From the NCBI GenBank assembly GCA_027214385.1, contig JAPVXR010000013.1, positions 62,001 through 126,000 of the forward strand: a DNA stretch of 64,000 nucleotides. The letters run 5' to 3'. Source of the DNA: Cryomorphaceae bacterium 1068. GTDB lineage: Bacteria; Bacteroidota; Bacteroidia; Flavobacteriales_D; Cryomorphaceae. Positions 39,309 to 45,736 of this stretch are shown here, piece by piece (position 1 is the first letter of the stretch; each line of letters begins with the position of its first letter). The translations under genes were made by a program, and so were the position numbers. A model generated the notes under the pieces. It ran no database searches. It was given only the letters and a program-made list of their open reading frames with translations, and had not been told where the DNA came from.

Positions 39309-40952
39309 TTATTTTGCTGTGGTCAATAGCCGCGTTACGTCCTTTTTCTCGTAAACATATACGTGCTTTCCATCGGTGGTAAGGGAATTTCCAGCCCCTT
39401 TCTTGGCATTGAAAGCCCAGTACTTACAACCGTCTTTGATGTCAAAAGCAGCGATGTCATTCTTTGGTGTTTCCAGAATCAGAATGTTTTCGTGGAAGTC
39501 AACCACAGAAGCTCTTTTGTATTTATTGGCGGCGACTAAACTCCCGTCAGCAGAATTAAAAGTTGAAACTCCTTTTTCTCCAACTACTACAATCATTTCC
39601 TCATAGGGCAAGATCACCACGGCATTTCCGACTCCGCCGTTTTTCACCTCAACTTGGTAGTTTACATCTCCACCATGAATCTTTAAGCTGTACAGTTCCT
39701 TTCCCGAGCACACCACAAGGTTTTCACCATAGACGAGCATATTGGTAATACCCTTTTTGAATTTTTCGGAATCCCAGATGAGTCTGCCGTCTTCGTCGCT
39801 GTACGCCTGCACACCGCATGGCTTGATGTTTTGATCGTATACTTTCTTGGTGTAAGTAATATTTCCGTCGGCATCTTTTTCTCTAAACACCCCCTGAATT
39901 TCTACCACGCCACCTATTTGAAGCAGGAGTTTCCCATCTTCCAAGTACATGTTTGGAACCACTTTTGCGCCACCACCTATCTCTTGTGATTGCCAAACCA
40001 AACGGCCTGTGCTTCTTTCGTATTTGTTGATGTGCTGACCTTTTTTGCCTTCCATATCAAGCACATACACAAACTCATCTGTAATGATAGGATCGGGAAG
40101 TGCACCGTAAACGCCAAAGGCAGTTGCATTGCCGGGTGCTTTAACGGGAATTTTGTAATCAAACGCAGCACTCCACTTTTCTGCTCCCGTTTTGTAGTCA
40201 TACACCTGCAGTCCGCCCAAGTGAAGAATTACATTTCCATCTATCACATCAATGCCATATAGCCAGTCGCCTGTTACCACTTTCTTACTCGCTCTACCTA
40301 TGTAGGTATTCTCCCAAACGAGCTCCCCTGTTTTCATGTTGATTTTGGCAATCTGATTTTTAAATCCTGAAAACATCGCTATCAATCCCGATGGAATAAA
40401 GTTTACGGTAGTAAGGAATCCGTCTTCGTAGTAATACTTTCCAACTTTTCCTTTGAATTTGGCGGTGCTCCAGAGTTCTTCGCCCGTGTCGGCGTTTACG
40501 AAAAGGTTCACATCTTTAAACGTAAACAGAAAGCCATTTTCCTCCTCAATGAAGGAAATCATCTCTTCTTGCTTCAGCTTGTATCGATCAGATTCCCACA
40601 ATAAGTCGCCTGTTACCATGTCAATAACGGCTACTTGCTCTTTTCCCATTTTTAGATCGAGGAGAAAGATTTTTTTCGCCTCCCAAACGGGAATGATCCC
40701 ATCTACTTTTTTGAGTCGTTGAGAGATGTCCGTAAAGTCCTTTGTCCACACCACCTTGCCGGTTTCATTTTCGTAAACGGATATATCCTTATTCGAGGCA
40801 GTATATCCGTAGCCTACCCAGCCACCGTTGTCGCAGCCAAAGAAGTCTATCTGGTGGTCGAGTCGGGTTGACCACATTTCGGGCATATCGTCTTGCGCAC
40901 TGATTGACAAAGCCAAAAACAAGCCCGTAATAAAAATTGATATTGCTTTCAT
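39309..40952 (-). CDS. Secreted PQQ-like beta-propeller protein
   Basis: Signal peptide at residues 1-20 (ending SISAQ). The protein is a run of blade motifs with paired Trp, such as GKVVWTKDF, GDLLWESDRYK, GELVWENTYI, GAEKWSAAFD, GRLVWQSQEI, GRLIWDSEKF and CKYWAFNAKK, typical of PQQ_2/BamB-like propellers of seven or eight blades. No lipobox, so it is probably periplasmic or exported, and probably acts as a scaffold rather than an enzyme. It is the last gene of the operon headed by the stand-alone HTH gene, 18 nt after its upstream neighbour, and ends at a clear terminator. Confidence 0.85.
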   Translation of the reverse strand: MKAISIFITGLFLALSISAQDDMPEMWSTRLDHQIDFFGCDNGGWVGYGYTASNKDISVYENETGKVVWTKDFTDISQRLKKVDGIIPVWEAKKIFLLDLKMGKEQVAVIDMVTGDLLWESDRYKLKQEEMISFIEEENGFLFTFKDVNLFVNADTGEELWSTAKFKGKVGKYYYEDGFLTTVNFIPSGLIAMFSGFKNQIAKINMKTGELVWENTYIGRASKKVVTGDWLYGIDVIDGNVILHLGGLQVYDYKTGAEKWSAAFDYKIPVKAPGNATAFGVYGALPDPIITDEFVYVLDMEGKKGQHINKYERSTGRLVWQSQEIGGGAKVVPNMYLEDGKLLLQIGGVVEIQGVFREKDADGNITYTKKVYDQNIKPCGVQAYSDEDGRLIWDSEKFKKGITNMLVYGENLVVCSGKELYSLKIHGGDVNYQVEVKNGGVGNAVVILPYEEMIVVVGEKGVSTFNSADGSLVAANKYKRASVVDFHENILILETPKNDIAAFDIKDGCKYWAFNAKKGAGNSLTTDGKHVYVYEKKDVTRLLTTAK

Positions 40953-40970: not shown

Positions 40971-41342
40971 TTATGGAATTATAAATGTGTATTGAAAATT
41001 ATAGAGGTTTCCTTTGGGTATTTTGAAATCAAATTTGTGGTGCCTTACCAAATCATTTAAGGTGTTTTGTCCGTGGATGGAGGCGTCTTCTGATCGCTCC
41101 AAAGAGCGCATATGGGTTATTTTCCCCTTGTCGCCCACGGTTATTTGATAGGTGTAGCTCCCGTGTATTTCTTCTTTTTCCATGCCTTTCAGGAATTTTT
41201 CATCTTGGACGAGTTCGTCGAGATTCTTGGTGGCAAGTTCTGCAAACTCGTCACTCGTTTCTACGAATGGTCGTTGTGCTGAAAGCTCAGCACCTGTGAG
41301 CAGAATTGCGAACACAAGTAGTATTTTGAGGTTAGTTTTCAT
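40971..41342 (-). CDS. Small secreted protein, TonB-C-like
   Basis: Signal peptide at residues 1-22 (ending LSAQ), then about 100 residues. The second half (YTYQITVGDKGKITHMRSLE...HHKFDFKIPKG..NFQYTFIIP) has the strand-helix-strand pattern of the C-terminal domain of TonB-like energy transducers. There is no membrane anchor, so it is not a full TonB. The start overlaps the end of the upstream WD40-like gene by 11 nt, which implies tight co-expression. Function unknown. Confidence 0.72.
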   Translation of the reverse strand: MKTNLKILLVFAILLTGAELSAQRPFVETSDEFAELATKNLDELVQDEKFLKGMEKEEIHGSYTYQITVGDKGKITHMRSLERSEDASIHGQNTLNDLVRHHKFDFKIPKGNLYNFQYTFIIP

Positions 41343-42489
41343 ATGGTATTTCCCATTTAAAGATTAGAGATCCGTTGGTTATCAGAAGGTGGCTGTCATC
41401 AGCAGAAAATGCGATTCCTACGCGTCCGTCATCGGCAGGAAACTGCCCCTTCGTGTGACTTCCAAACATTCGCTTAGCCAATTCAAATCGAGCTATTATG
41501 CTTGCGTCATCGTACCTGCACACCCATACTTCAGGGAAGCGACCTTTGTTGATAGTCACCAGTGCGAAATACTCTTGGCTATTGCTGAATTCGAAGTCGG
41601 GCTCGTAGATGGAATTTGAAACGAAGCCACGGGGTAAGGTTTCTCCGTTTTCGACATTGATTACCGAGATGTACCTGGTACCCGTCATCCCCGTTTTTGC
41701 GACCACCTTGGTATGCGGTACCGAGTAGCAGAGTAGGGTAGAGCCTTCCGGCGAAAACTCCAGCGCGTAGGGAATGTCAAACATTTCATCAACGGTGTAT
41801 AGCCTTGTGTAGTTTTCCGTTTCGTAGACGGAAATGCACTGCCGGTACTTCTTGAAGATTTTGTAGTTGTCTTTTTGCTTCTTCTTGGTGATGTAAGAAT
41901 TGAGGTATTCATCTTCCACATGATGAGAGATGGCCACCTGGGAACCATCGGGAGAAAAGGCCATGCAATTGGTCGCGTCAGGGGTAGGGAGGAGTACTTT
42001 CTTTCCTTTGCCCGAAAGGCTATAGCTATACAGGTTGTCACCTTCAAGCACGATCAACTCCTCATTGTTGGGGTGAAAGTCGGCATCGTGGCCTGCATCG
42101 ATGGTCAGCACCTCTTTTCCCGTGGCAGCTTCTACCACTTCAAACTTTACCTCGCGGTCTTTATTGGGAGCGTAATCCAAGTATTTGAGCTGCTGAAGCA
42201 AAATGTACCTGCCATCGCTCGAAAGATTGACTCGAGAACCGCCGTACCAATTGCCCACATCGTAAGTCGACTTGATATTGAGATCTTGGTCTACCACATA
42301 TAGCGGAAAGCTCTGCGTGGCTGAGATGATGTAATCTTCCGTTCCAGGAATGATGTCAATGTCTGAATGCAGAAATTTATAAGGGGCAGGCGAGACATCT
42401 ATTTTCTCAAAGACCATATTCGTGCTTTGCCCCAATAGTTGCAGTGAACAAAAGAATATCGAAAGAATAGTTATGCTTTTTGCCTTCAT
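41332..42489 (-). CDS. Secreted WD40-like propeller protein
   Basis: Signal peptide at residues 1-21 (ending LLGQ), followed by TolB/WD40-like blades: SDGRYILLQQLKYLDYA, FHPNNEELIVLEGDNLYSY, FSPDGSQVAISHHVED, FSPEGSTLLCYS, FSADDSHLLITNGSLIFKWEI. It is probably periplasmic and acts by protein binding. It starts with a TAATG one-base overlap with the upstream HTH gene, so translation is coupled. It forms one operon with a regulator, a TonB-C-like protein and a PQQ-type propeller. Confidence 0.78.
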   Translation of the reverse strand: MKAKSITILSIFFCSLQLLGQSTNMVFEKIDVSPAPYKFLHSDIDIIPGTEDYIISATQSFPLYVVDQDLNIKSTYDVGNWYGGSRVNLSSDGRYILLQQLKYLDYAPNKDREVKFEVVEAATGKEVLTIDAGHDADFHPNNEELIVLEGDNLYSYSLSGKGKKVLLPTPDATNCMAFSPDGSQVAISHHVEDEYLNSYITKKKQKDNYKIFKKYRQCISVYETENYTRLYTVDEMFDIPYALEFSPEGSTLLCYSVPHTKVVAKTGMTGTRYISVINVENGETLPRGFVSNSIYEPDFEFSNSQEYFALVTINKGRFPEVWVCRYDDASIIARFELAKRMFGSHTKGQFPADDGRVGIAFSADDSHLLITNGSLIFKWEIPYEN

Positions 42490-42710
42490 TAGTCTATAAG
42501 TTTCATTTTTATCGCATGCCGAATCATCCCGGCAACGTTCTTTACTTGGAGTTTGGTTCTGATGCTTTTTCTATGACTGGCTACCGTTCCCTCATCGATA
42601 TTTAGCAGAAGAGCAATTTTTTTGCTGGTGAAGCCTTTGGCAATAAGCGCCAGTACTTCTTTTTCTCTTCCGGAAAGTGGATGTGTGTAGAATGATGAAT
42701 CGGCTGTCAT
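42489..42710 (-). CDS. Stand-alone LuxR/GerE-type HTH regulator
   Basis: About 73 residues, almost wholly a GerE helix-turn-helix domain (LSGREKEVLALIAKGFTSKKIALLLNIDEGTVASHRKSIRTKL...). It has no receiver or ligand-binding domain. I chose the ATG at 42710; a longer frame from TTG at 42734 would start inside a TTTG promoter-like element and has no clear merit. The HTH is related to that of the NarL-type regulator encoded just upstream, so it could compete for, or share, its sites in the 70-bp gap. The stop and the next start overlap as TAATG. Confidence 0.82.
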   Translation of the reverse strand: MTADSSFYTHPLSGREKEVLALIAKGFTSKKIALLLNIDEGTVASHRKSIRTKLQVKNVAGMIRHAIKMKLID

Positions 42711-42731: not shown

Positions 42732-42739
42732 CAAAGATT
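42732..42739 (-). promoter_or_regulatory. Possible -7 element before the HTH operon
   Basis: AATCTTTG on the - strand matches TAnnTTTG at seven... of its six fixed bases all but the first T fit. It lies 21 nt before the ATG at 42710. No TTG/TTTG sits at the -33 distance; the half-site array begins about 24 bp upstream instead, as expected for an activator-dependent promoter. Confidence 0.45.
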
Positions 42740-42762
42740 CCTAAAGCACGTTGGGTAATAAA

Positions 42763-42800
42763 TAGGGAGAAAGCCCTAATCGTATAGGGTAAATACCCTA
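42763..42800. promoter_or_regulatory. Operator-like array: TAGGG-N6-CCCTA twice
   Basis: Half-sites TAGGG (42763-42767), CCCTA (42774-42778), TAGGG (42785-42789) and CCCTA (42796-42800) start exactly 11 bp apart, so all face one side of the helix. The inner part of the second pair extends to TAGGGTA-AA-TACCCTA, a 7-2-7 inverted repeat. NarL-family HTH proteins are known to bind heptamers in a 7-2-7 arrangement. The array lies between a NarL-type regulator gene and the HTH operon. Confidence 0.7.
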
Positions 42801-42804
42801 ATTC

Positions 42805-43452
42805 TTAAACTAGACCGTTGGAAGCGGCCAGTTTTACAAGAGCTGCTGAATTGTGAACCTGCAGTTTTTTCATGAGGTTCGTTCGGTGGGAATCTACCGT
42901 GCGGTGAGAGATGAATAGTTCTTCTCCAATTTCTTTATTGGACATTCCTTGAGCGATGAGTTTGAGGATTTCCCGTTCTCGCTCGCTGAGTTTTGAAAAG
43001 AGTAGGGCGTCCGTTCCTACGGTAAAATTACCCGGAGTTACATTCTCTCCTGTAATGACCGCACGCGCCGCATCGCCGCTGAAGTAGGTTTTTCCTTCGG
43101 CCACCCGTTTCAACGCGGTTTCAAATTCAGAGCGATCTGAATTTTTCAGTAGAAAACCACTGGCACCGATTTCCATCATGCGTTTGATGAGAGACGGGTC
43201 GCCGTGCATGGTGAGTATGATAACCTTTGTTTCAGGACTCCGCTTTTTCAGTTCGATGGTCGCTTCCAAGCCATTCATTACGGGCATATCTACATCCATA
43301 AGTACAATGTCGGGCTTCAGCATATCTGTAAATTCCAGCGCCTCTTTTCCGTTTTCGGCTCCTCCTACTACCTCAAAGCCGCCCAAGCTATTCACGAGCT
43401 CGCTTATTCCGCTTTGCACCAGGGTATGATCATCGACAATCAATATGCGCAT
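42805..43452 (-). CDS. NarL/FixJ-type response regulator
   Basis: REC domain at residues 1-120 with DD at 7-8, phospho-acceptor D53 (LMDVDMPVMNG) and the switch Thr in IILTMHG, then a GerE HTH at about 150-212 (LSEREREILKLIAQGMSNKEIGEELFISHRTVDSHR). It starts by a TGATG one-base overlap with the upstream sensor kinase gene, so the two are a cognate pair. The 70-bp gap after it carries regularly spaced inverted half-sites, making the downstream HTH/propeller operon its most likely target. Confidence 0.94.
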   Translation of the reverse strand: MRILIVDDHTLVQSGISELVNSLGGFEVVGGAENGKEALEFTDMLKPDIVLMDVDMPVMNGLEATIELKKRSPETKVIILTMHGDPSLIKRMMEIGASGFLLKNSDRSEFETALKRVAEGKTYFSGDAARAVITGENVTPGNFTVGTDALLFSKLSEREREILKLIAQGMSNKEIGEELFISHRTVDSHRTNLMKKLQVHNSAALVKLAASNGLV

Positions 43453-45374
43453 CAGGAGAGGGGAGTTTTAATGGTGGTTTCGGTTCCGCCTTCTTCGGGA
43501 AAATCAAAGCTAAGAGAGGCATTGATTTGCTGAAGGCGCGATTTGATGTTGAGGAGGCCATGGCCCTCATCTTTTGTCGGGTTAAAGCCTTTTCCATTGT
43601 CTTTCACGGCCAGCACCAGCGTTTCGTTTTCCTTTAAAAGATCGATAGAGACGCGATCGGCTCCAGAGTGCTTGAGAATGTTGTTGATCAATTCCTGTGA
43701 CACGCGGTACATGTTTACCTCCACTTGGTCGGCGAAGCGGTTGCCTTCTGTATCGTCGTGAAAGTGGTACCTGATATTATTGAGGCCCAAGCTTTTTTCT
43801 AATGAATCTTTGATCGCCGCGCCGAGCCCCAGCTCGCTCAGCGATTTTGGCATCATTCTATGTGAGAGCTCTCTCACATCTTGCGCCGATTCATCTACCA
43901 CTTTCTCAATCAACTGAAATTTGGTTTGATTCTCTTCGCCTTGGTCCTTCATCTGATTGGACATATTGGCGAGCCCGAGTTTAATGCTGGAAAGCTGCTG
44001 ACCGATGCCATCGTGCAGTTCTCTGGCCATTCTCCTTTTTTCCTGTTCGGTGGCGTTTATTACTGCATCAAGTTGGTTTTTCTGCTCAGCTGCAATGGCT
44101 CGTTGTAGCTCTGCCTCTTTTTTGGATTTAATAAAGCGGTACCCCAGAATTCCCGATACCAATGCCAACAAGAGAATTCCCGATAGCCCCAGAAGCATAT
44201 TGTTCCTAGCTTGAATTTTAAGATCGGCTTCTTCCAGTTCGAGTCCTTGAATTTTAATCTGTTGCTCTTTTTCCTTCGTTTGGTATTGCGTCTCCAGCTC
44301 CTGAACGATCTCTTGTTGGTTTTCGCCAAGAACCGAATCATGAACTGCCAAGTACTGCACATGGTATTCCAAAGCCTTTTCAAAATTGCCTAAGTTCTTG
44401 TACGAACTGGCCAAATTGGCGAGGGAAATCTCACGGTCGTGCTTCGAGTCAATTTCGTTGGCCATGCGCAGGCACTTCTCTAGCGTTTGGATCGCTTGGC
44501 GCGGGTTGCCCATTTCATTCTTCATCTCTGCAATGTTCGAGAGGGTACTGATCTGTCCGCGAATGTCGCCAAGGGTGCTGTCTATTCGATAGGATTCGCG
44601 GAATTGATCGATAGCACTCTCCATATCGCCCATGTAGTAATACACGGCGCCAATATTGTTGATGCTTTCAGACATTCCCTGAAGGTTATTGAGCTCCTTC
44701 TCTATTCCGTAAGACCTTTCGAAGTATGTGAGCGCAGAATCAAGCACACCCTGATTGGCATAAACTATTGCGTAGTTATTGTAAATATTGGCAATCTCTT
44801 TTCGGTTGTTCTCTTCGGTTTGGATGTCCAGAGCCTCATCATAATAGGATAGAGCCTTGTCGTAGTCTTCCATATACATAAACATCACACCCACATTATT
44901 CAGTACCGTGCCGACATCTGTATTTTGATTCGCCTCTTTGTGCAGGTCGATGGCTTTTTGGTAGGATTTGAGTGCCTCTTCGTATTCTCCCTTATACCTG
45001 TAGCAAACACCTTTGTTGGAATGGATGGCTGCTTTGAGCGATACGGCCTCCGTTCCATCTAGATAGCCGAGAGCGCTGTCCGCATAAAGCAGTGCCTCAT
45101 TGTAATATCCTTGAAATCTGTAGGCTACTGAGAGTTTGTGCATGGCATCCGCAGATCCGTAAGCATATTTGAGTTCGACTGATTTTTCAGCCGCTTCTTC
45201 CGCCATTTCCTTGGCACGATTTGGGTCTGATTGAGCAATGGTAAAACTCAGCTCGTTGAGTTTGTCTACCAAGGCTTGATTTTTCAGCCCTATGAGCTTT
45301 TGATCTAAGCTATCGACTTGCGCATACAAGCTGTTTAAGGAAATGATTAAACAGAACAAAAAGACTCTTTTCAT
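43452..45374 (-). CDS. TPR sensor histidine kinase of the NarX/HisKA_3 class
   Basis: Start taken at the ATG at 45374, which gives a proper signal peptide (MKRVFLFCLIISLNSLYAQ); a GTG at 45425 would add 17 residues without a signal. TPR repeats cover about 60-370 (YNEALLYADSALGYLD, YEEALKSYQKAIDLH, YDKALSYYDEALDIQ). A membrane helix (LLGLSGILLLALVSGILGY) and coiled coil follow, then HisKA_3 with H454 in RRMARELHDGIGQQLSSIK, and a HATPase_c with DNGKGFNPTKDEGHGLLNI. The class pairs with NarL-type regulators, and the next gene is one. Signal unknown; repeated TPRs suggest a peptide or protein input. Confidence 0.92.
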   Translation of the reverse strand: MKRVFLFCLIISLNSLYAQVDSLDQKLIGLKNQALVDKLNELSFTIAQSDPNRAKEMAEEAAEKSVELKYAYGSADAMHKLSVAYRFQGYYNEALLYADSALGYLDGTEAVSLKAAIHSNKGVCYRYKGEYEEALKSYQKAIDLHKEANQNTDVGTVLNNVGVMFMYMEDYDKALSYYDEALDIQTEENNRKEIANIYNNYAIVYANQGVLDSALTYFERSYGIEKELNNLQGMSESINNIGAVYYYMGDMESAIDQFRESYRIDSTLGDIRGQISTLSNIAEMKNEMGNPRQAIQTLEKCLRMANEIDSKHDREISLANLASSYKNLGNFEKALEYHVQYLAVHDSVLGENQQEIVQELETQYQTKEKEQQIKIQGLELEEADLKIQARNNMLLGLSGILLLALVSGILGYRFIKSKKEAELQRAIAAEQKNQLDAVINATEQEKRRMARELHDGIGQQLSSIKLGLANMSNQMKDQGEENQTKFQLIEKVVDESAQDVRELSHRMMPKSLSELGLGAAIKDSLEKSLGLNNIRYHFHDDTEGNRFADQVEVNMYRVSQELINNILKHSGADRVSIDLLKENETLVLAVKDNGKGFNPTKDEGHGLLNIKSRLQQINASLSFDFPEEGGTETTIKTPLS

Positions 45375-45736
45375 ATGATTAGTGTAACCAAAACGAATAT
45401 ATACCTCTTCTTTTAATTGTTCCACTTTTCATGAAAAATGAAGAGTAGATTAGACTCATTCTAGGTACTTTGACGGGTATGGTTTTGAGTGAATCGGTTT
45501 TTTATGGTAATGAGAAAAAAAGCTTATTTCTTAGGTTTCTATAAGAGGTGAATCTGTTTAAACTCGATTTTAACGACTAATAAAATGTTGTGTATCAAAA
45601 GCTAGGAGGAGTTAGATTTTTCACTGTAACCCGAGGCATAACTTCCTCTTTTGGGACATGTGAAAAAAACGTACTGCAACATTTTCCATCTCAATAGGAT
45701 TAATGTAGATTGGCCACACGTGAAAAGATACTATTA
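45375..45736. other. Intergenic region between divergent genes
   Basis: About 360 nt between the starts of the sensor kinase (-) and the PLP enzyme (+). It is AT-rich and should hold the promoters of both genes, but I could not find a full TTTG...TAnnTTTG pair on either strand. The + strand TTG at 45710 is an alternative start for the PLP enzyme. No tRNA, repeat or convincing small ORF was seen. Confidence 0.5.

Follow-up and report, generated by a model that had tools for sequence, protein, structure and literature searches.

A phased four-half-site array beside a NarL-type response regulator gene of a Cryomorphaceae bacterium is probably the regulator's own two-dimer operator

The 64,000-nucleotide stretch of Cryomorphaceae bacterium 1068 DNA analysed here (the window) contains, within a 70-bp gap separating the gene for a NarL-type response regulator (RR) from that for a lone LuxR-type helix-turn-helix (HTH) protein, four regularly spaced half-sites. 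Which protein reads these half-sites, and with what effect on the operon that follows? The reading that we favour, with a probability of about 0.83, is that the array is the operator of the RR encoded directly upstream, which would bind it as two dimers and activate the lone-HTH/propeller operon in a class-II-type manner. The features concerned, in window coordinates, are the following.

43452–45425, minus strand: TPR-containing histidine kinase (HisKA_3 and HATPase_c, by Pfam)
42805–43452, minus strand: NarL/FixJ-type RR, receiver plus GerE HTH (by Pfam), recognition helix RTVDSHRTN; putative operator binder
42785–42800, no strand: promoter-distal 7-2-7 dimer site, TAGGGTA-AA-TACCCTA; its 22–23 bp spacing is kept in relatives
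42763–42778, no strand: promoter-proximal 7-2-7 dimer site, TAGGG-AGAAAG-CCCTA; orthologous site in G002
42732–42739, minus strand: -7-type element AATCTTTG, with its TTTG at 42735–42732
42489–42710, minus strand: lone LuxR-type HTH protein (73 aa, counted from ATG 42710), heading the target operon
41332–42489, minus strand: exported 385-aa protein, the "propeller" of the initial annotation, no Pfam match; second gene
40971–41342, minus strand: exported 123-aa protein; third gene, overlapping the second
39309–40952, minus strand: PQQ_2/BamB-type beta-propeller protein (by Pfam); probable last gene

The order of genes is as the initial annotation described it, with the array between a NarL-type regulator and an operon headed by a lone LuxR-type HTH gene. 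The RR matches Response_reg (5e-30) and GerE (3e-23) in Pfam, the domain pair of the NarL/FixJ type, and its profile matches the VraR and NarL chains over their full length. The last base of the histidine kinase open reading frame is the first base of that of the RR, and the kinase is likely to be its partner.

On the plus strand, the array reads TAGGG-AGAAAG-CCCTA-ATCGTA-TAGGG-TAAATA-CCCTA (42763–42800) and is placed 4 bp past the RR stop codon. Its half-sites (42763–42767, 42774–42778, 42785–42789 and 42796–42800) follow one another in steps of 11 bp, so the exact phasing claimed at the outset holds for all four, and the centres of the two 16-bp dimer sites are 22 bp apart. The 7-2-7 inverted repeat reported with it is present at 42785–42800 and has the hallmarks of a NarL-type site, i.e., inverted heptamers, a 2-bp spacer, a length of 16 bp and outer TA ends. 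When the 4.32-Mb genome was scanned for TAGGG-N6-CCCTA, as the initial annotation had proposed, exactly two palindromes were found, both within the array, and the array was still the sole match to TASGG-N6-CCSTA-N6-TASGG-N6-CCSTA with up to three mismatches. A loose three-half-site pattern with three mismatches returned only background, the source genome (G000) giving fewer matches than the reversed control. Judged by its letters and its relatives, the array is a real, conserved element. Chance assembly of short palindromes, although some three single TAGGG-N6-CCCTA palindromes are expected in a genome of this size, is thus very improbable, since the exact four-half-site array is expected only 2e-6 times and its geometry is kept in relatives.

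Downstream of the array, the predicted promoter has the shape that had been proposed, a -7-like sequence without a -33 element. Exactly 27 bp separate the last half-site from the TTTG of AATCTTTG (42739–42732), an interval in which no -33 element of the TTG type is seen. The consensus for Bacteroidota primary-sigma promoters is TTTG at -33 and TAnnTTTG at -7 (PMC7366714); the promoter here shares the TTTG of the -7 element, which is invariant across nine aligned promoters, while it shows no -33 and its operator ends near -35. The missing -33 is weak evidence alone because, in work that PMC7366714 cites, Flavobacterium johnsoniae likewise yielded no global -33 motif. The TTG start that the ORF finder assigns to the lone HTH gene (42734; 42732–42734 in the window) falls inside the -7 element. 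The gene probably starts instead at ATG 42710, where its orthologue in G002 begins, which would leave a leader of ~18 nt.

Scans of a contig database found no orthologues of the propeller gene, and phylogenetic footprinting relied instead on a search of relatives' genomes, 399 in all from the order. For the 385-aa exported protein, the only close orthologue among ~400 genomes of the order is in G002. In G002, which belongs to another genus of the same family, the gene order is the same as in the source genome, with identities of 63% for the second operon gene, 64% for the RR and 55% for the lone HTH protein. Its array, TACGT-N6-CCGTA-N6-TACGA-N6-CCCTA in promoter orientation, has strongly diverged half-sites, whose phase is nevertheless unchanged. 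In G005, the RR gene is on a different contig and the array still precedes the lone HTH gene. The pattern search uncovered further arrays in family f9 (G091, G149 and G214). The array of G091, from another family, is identical to that of G002 at 33 of 38 bases when compared by eye, and that of G149 lies directly 3' of a kinase–RR pair. Dimer centres are 22 bp apart in G000, G002 (two loci), G005, G091, G149, G214 and G231, and 23 bp apart in G063, G318 and G193, which would place neighbouring dimers two helical turns apart, as for BvgA. TTTG, too, keeps its distance from the last half-site, at exactly 27 bp in G000, G002, G005 and G091; in G149 it is 26 bp. That dimer spacing and operator-to--7 distance are both kept across genera and families lends good support to the earlier suggestion of side-by-side dimers before a promoter without a -33.

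A composite pattern that includes the promoter distance gave 12 matches in 11 of the 399 genomes (two of them in G214), against 4 for the reversed control, and its three matches with zero mismatches are in G000, G002 and G091. Most matches lie in the correct orientation, 81–149 bp 5' of the start codon (ATG) of a gene for an exported protein. Homology links the G091 target to that of G214 (C197), at 35% identity (E 3e-31), and likewise the propeller-type genes that follow the operators of G149 and of the G002 paralogue. T9SS sorting domains are present in operator targets and, together with the -7 element, are the grounds for calling the order Bacteroidota-type. Some matches, among them those in G349, G117 (C15), G247 and G004, are probably due to chance or belong to other regulators; the G349 match was rejected as an operator, being inside a coding region on the opposite strand. 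Close relatives of the RR were found by profile scans in operator-bearing G000, G002, G005, G149, G091, G214 and G117, and the presence of this subfamily is associated with that of the operator (p 4e-7; p 0.004 without the four genomes from which the profile was built). The profile scans found no close RR homologue in G108, G141, G152 and G223, whose pattern matches are likewise probably due to chance or the sites of other regulators, although in G108, G141 and G152 the sequence resembles that of a real promoter. Two of these promoters (L065 and L066, at 1501–1569), from G141 and G108, two genomes of one genus, share a TACGT array with TAGTTTTG placed 27 bp away, and each precedes a member of a homologous pair of exported-protein genes; the frame may serve a different regulator there.

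The position of operators relative to RR genes was surveyed with a matrix at 116 distinct RR loci, for which 60 regions were fetched solely for this test. Two-dimer sites were found within 370 bp 3' of the RR stop at 14 of the 116 loci (99.9% level in shuffles, 11.6) and at none of the 116 upstream regions (Fisher p 4e-5 for downstream versus upstream; the matrix was trained on part of the tested set, and p is 4e-4 without the three training loci). Further arrays lie directly 3' of RR stops in the G002 paralogue, G063, G318, G193, G231 and G017, while G016 and G032 have a single perfect dimer there (TACGGTATTTACCGTA and TACGGGATTTACCGTA). For most of the 116 RR homologues, no adjoining operator could be recognised; theirs may lie elsewhere or have diverged. 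A matrix-free scan for TAS-N10-STA sites 3' of RR stops, which takes in RRs beyond the close subfamily, with differing half-sites, found TTTG at 26–27 bp in 13 cases versus 0.35 in shuffles. A second bump at 49 bp (27+22) corresponds to the upstream dimer. Likewise, TAC-N10-GTA sites downstream of RRs numbered 32, versus 8.5 in shuffles. The site thus stands at a fixed distance of 26–27 bp from TTTG, where it would abut or replace the -33/-35 element, as expected of a class-II-type activator.

Recognition helix and half-site should co-vary if it is the neighbouring RR that reads the site, and this is what we found. Adjoining RRs with TVDxHR(T/V)N helices (RTVD(S/T)HR(T/V)N) pair with TASG half-sites. 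By contrast, the TVNTHRKNA/TINTHRKNA helices of L165, L172 and L183 pair with sites beginning TACACC, 27 bp from TTTG, and would form a second specificity class, while the T(V/I)ETHRKN helices of L171, L087 and L083 pair with NarL-like TACC sites (TACCGATCGATCGGTA, TACCCGATTACGGGTA), 26–27 bp from TTTG, and would form a third. A G at position 4 of the half-site accompanies 6 of 6 D-type helices and 1 of 7 of the E and N types (p 0.004), a contrast drawn from few cases, with one exception (L102), and in which one of the six D-type cases (L162) was typed through its sister L134, its own HTH region being broken. In L162 itself (G032), the RR frame is interrupted in the HTH region by a stop or ambiguous bases, and the downstream single dimer and promoter look perfect.

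The protein that binds the operator is most likely the NarL-type RR rather than the lone HTH protein, because genomes without a lone HTH gene still have operators after homologous RR genes and because a different RR recognition helix comes with a different half-site. The alternative, that the lone HTH protein binds the array and autoregulates its own operon with the adjoining RR uninvolved, draws on the array of G005, which stays with the lone HTH gene when the RR gene is elsewhere, and on the co-occurrence of lone HTH, close RR orthologue and operator in the same 3 of 8 genomes of the family. Short lone-HTH genes of this family were found, among the genomes scanned, only in G000, G002 and G005, plus a 77-aa one in G017 that follows the RR and operator; in all four the gene itself is downstream of the operator, so autoregulation would be possible there. 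However, operators of the same geometry stand beside RR genes or elsewhere in G091, G149 and G214, which have no lone HTH of this family, and the lone HTH recognition helices vary among themselves, none with the TVD signature that accompanies TASG. On these grounds we reject the lone HTH protein as the general binder, and consider exclusive control by it improbable.

Similarly improbable is that the RR binds the array but acts as a repressor, obstructing the promoter or stopping read-through out of its own operon. Repression by NarL family regulators does exist, as when NarL acts on frdA through sites close to the start (PMC4549865), but the array overlaps neither the -7 element nor the start, and a fixed spacing of 26–27 bp without a -33 motif is the pattern of activator contact. 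Far less probable still is a role at the RNA level, in which the palindromes would form a terminator or attenuator hairpin ending the kinase–RR transcript. While TAGGGCTTTCTCCCTA-TTTATTACCC resembles a terminator by the criteria of a simple scan, the array folds no better than shuffles (z -0.66) and has no Rfam match, the tail TTTATTACCC is not a T run, and in the proximal site of G002 the hairpin pairing is gone while half-site ends and spacing are kept. Without a stable hairpin followed by a T run, this role was rejected.

Under the two-dimer activation model, the TPR histidine kinase would pass its signal to the RR, which, once phosphorylated, would bind each 16-bp 7-2-7 palindrome with one dimer, two in all, with one monomer per 11-bp helical turn and all monomers on the same side of the helix. 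With TTTG set at -7 to -4, an assumption from which the exact numbering follows, the operator would span ~-35 to -72. The proximal dimer, centred near -42.5, would end ~35 bp before the transcription start, substitute for the -33 contact of the sigma factor and activate the lone-HTH/propeller operon in a class-II-type manner, while the distal dimer, centred near -64.5, would add cooperativity. RR binding, its dependence on phosphorylation and the start site are what we infer from the sequence, and activation rather than repression is read from position only.

Precedents in NarL (PMC4549865) and BvgA (PMC7250471) suggest, by analogy, this two-dimer class-II-type reading. At the Bordetella fha promoter, BvgA binds as head-to-head dimers that line one face of the DNA at a centre-to-centre distance of 22 bp; the strong site is an inverted heptad, and the dimer nearest the promoter adjoins the -35 region (PMC7250471). 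Our RR is of the same domain family, with the same 22-bp dimer centres, its binding being predicted from sequence. However, the fha array comprises three dimers, one on a strong site, whereas here there are usually two near-consensus sites, with a Bacteroidota-type -7, a TASG sequence and a position right after the RR gene. Escherichia coli NarL activates napF and yeaR from 7-2-7 sites near -43 to -45 (PMC4549865), a position like that predicted here for the proximal dimer. These sites, and the engineered site TACCCCTAAAGGGGTA, share the 16-bp inverted heptamers, two-base spacer and TA ends, while the E. coli promoters differ in having one named 7-2-7 site, other central bases, a nitrate signal and a sigma-70 promoter. 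The nearest solved full-length structures by profile are VraR, NarL and DesR, all with a receiver and a GerE-type HTH; these are distant relatives, likened to the RR by protein profile and not by their operators.

We found no description of this module in the open literature (most subscription papers were outside coverage), which, as far as searched, also leaves the targets of NarL-type two-component systems in this group largely undescribed. We give about even odds to the broader proposition that many NarL-type RRs of this Bacteroidota-type order carry their own operator 3' of the gene in a fixed promoter frame (a 7-2-7 dimer, an optional second dimer 22–23 bp upstream and 26–27 bp to TTTG), making their recognition code readable from sequence. 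If true, TVD helices would read TASG, TVN/TIN helices TACACC and TVE/TIE helices TACC, and the DNA recognition of large numbers of uncharacterised regulators could be deduced from genome sequence alone. A frame beside the regulator gene would offer a direct route to predicting operators, targets and recognition-helix specificity, the targets here being exported propeller-type, lipoprotein-like and T9SS-tailed proteins, plus a lone HTH regulator. It also suggests a way for an activator to stand in for the -33 contact of the Bacteroidota sigma factor, which is itself poorly defined. In G024 (L154, at 2314), the array after one RR gene precedes a second, RR-like gene (209 aa), which suggests a regulator cascade comparable to that with the lone HTH.
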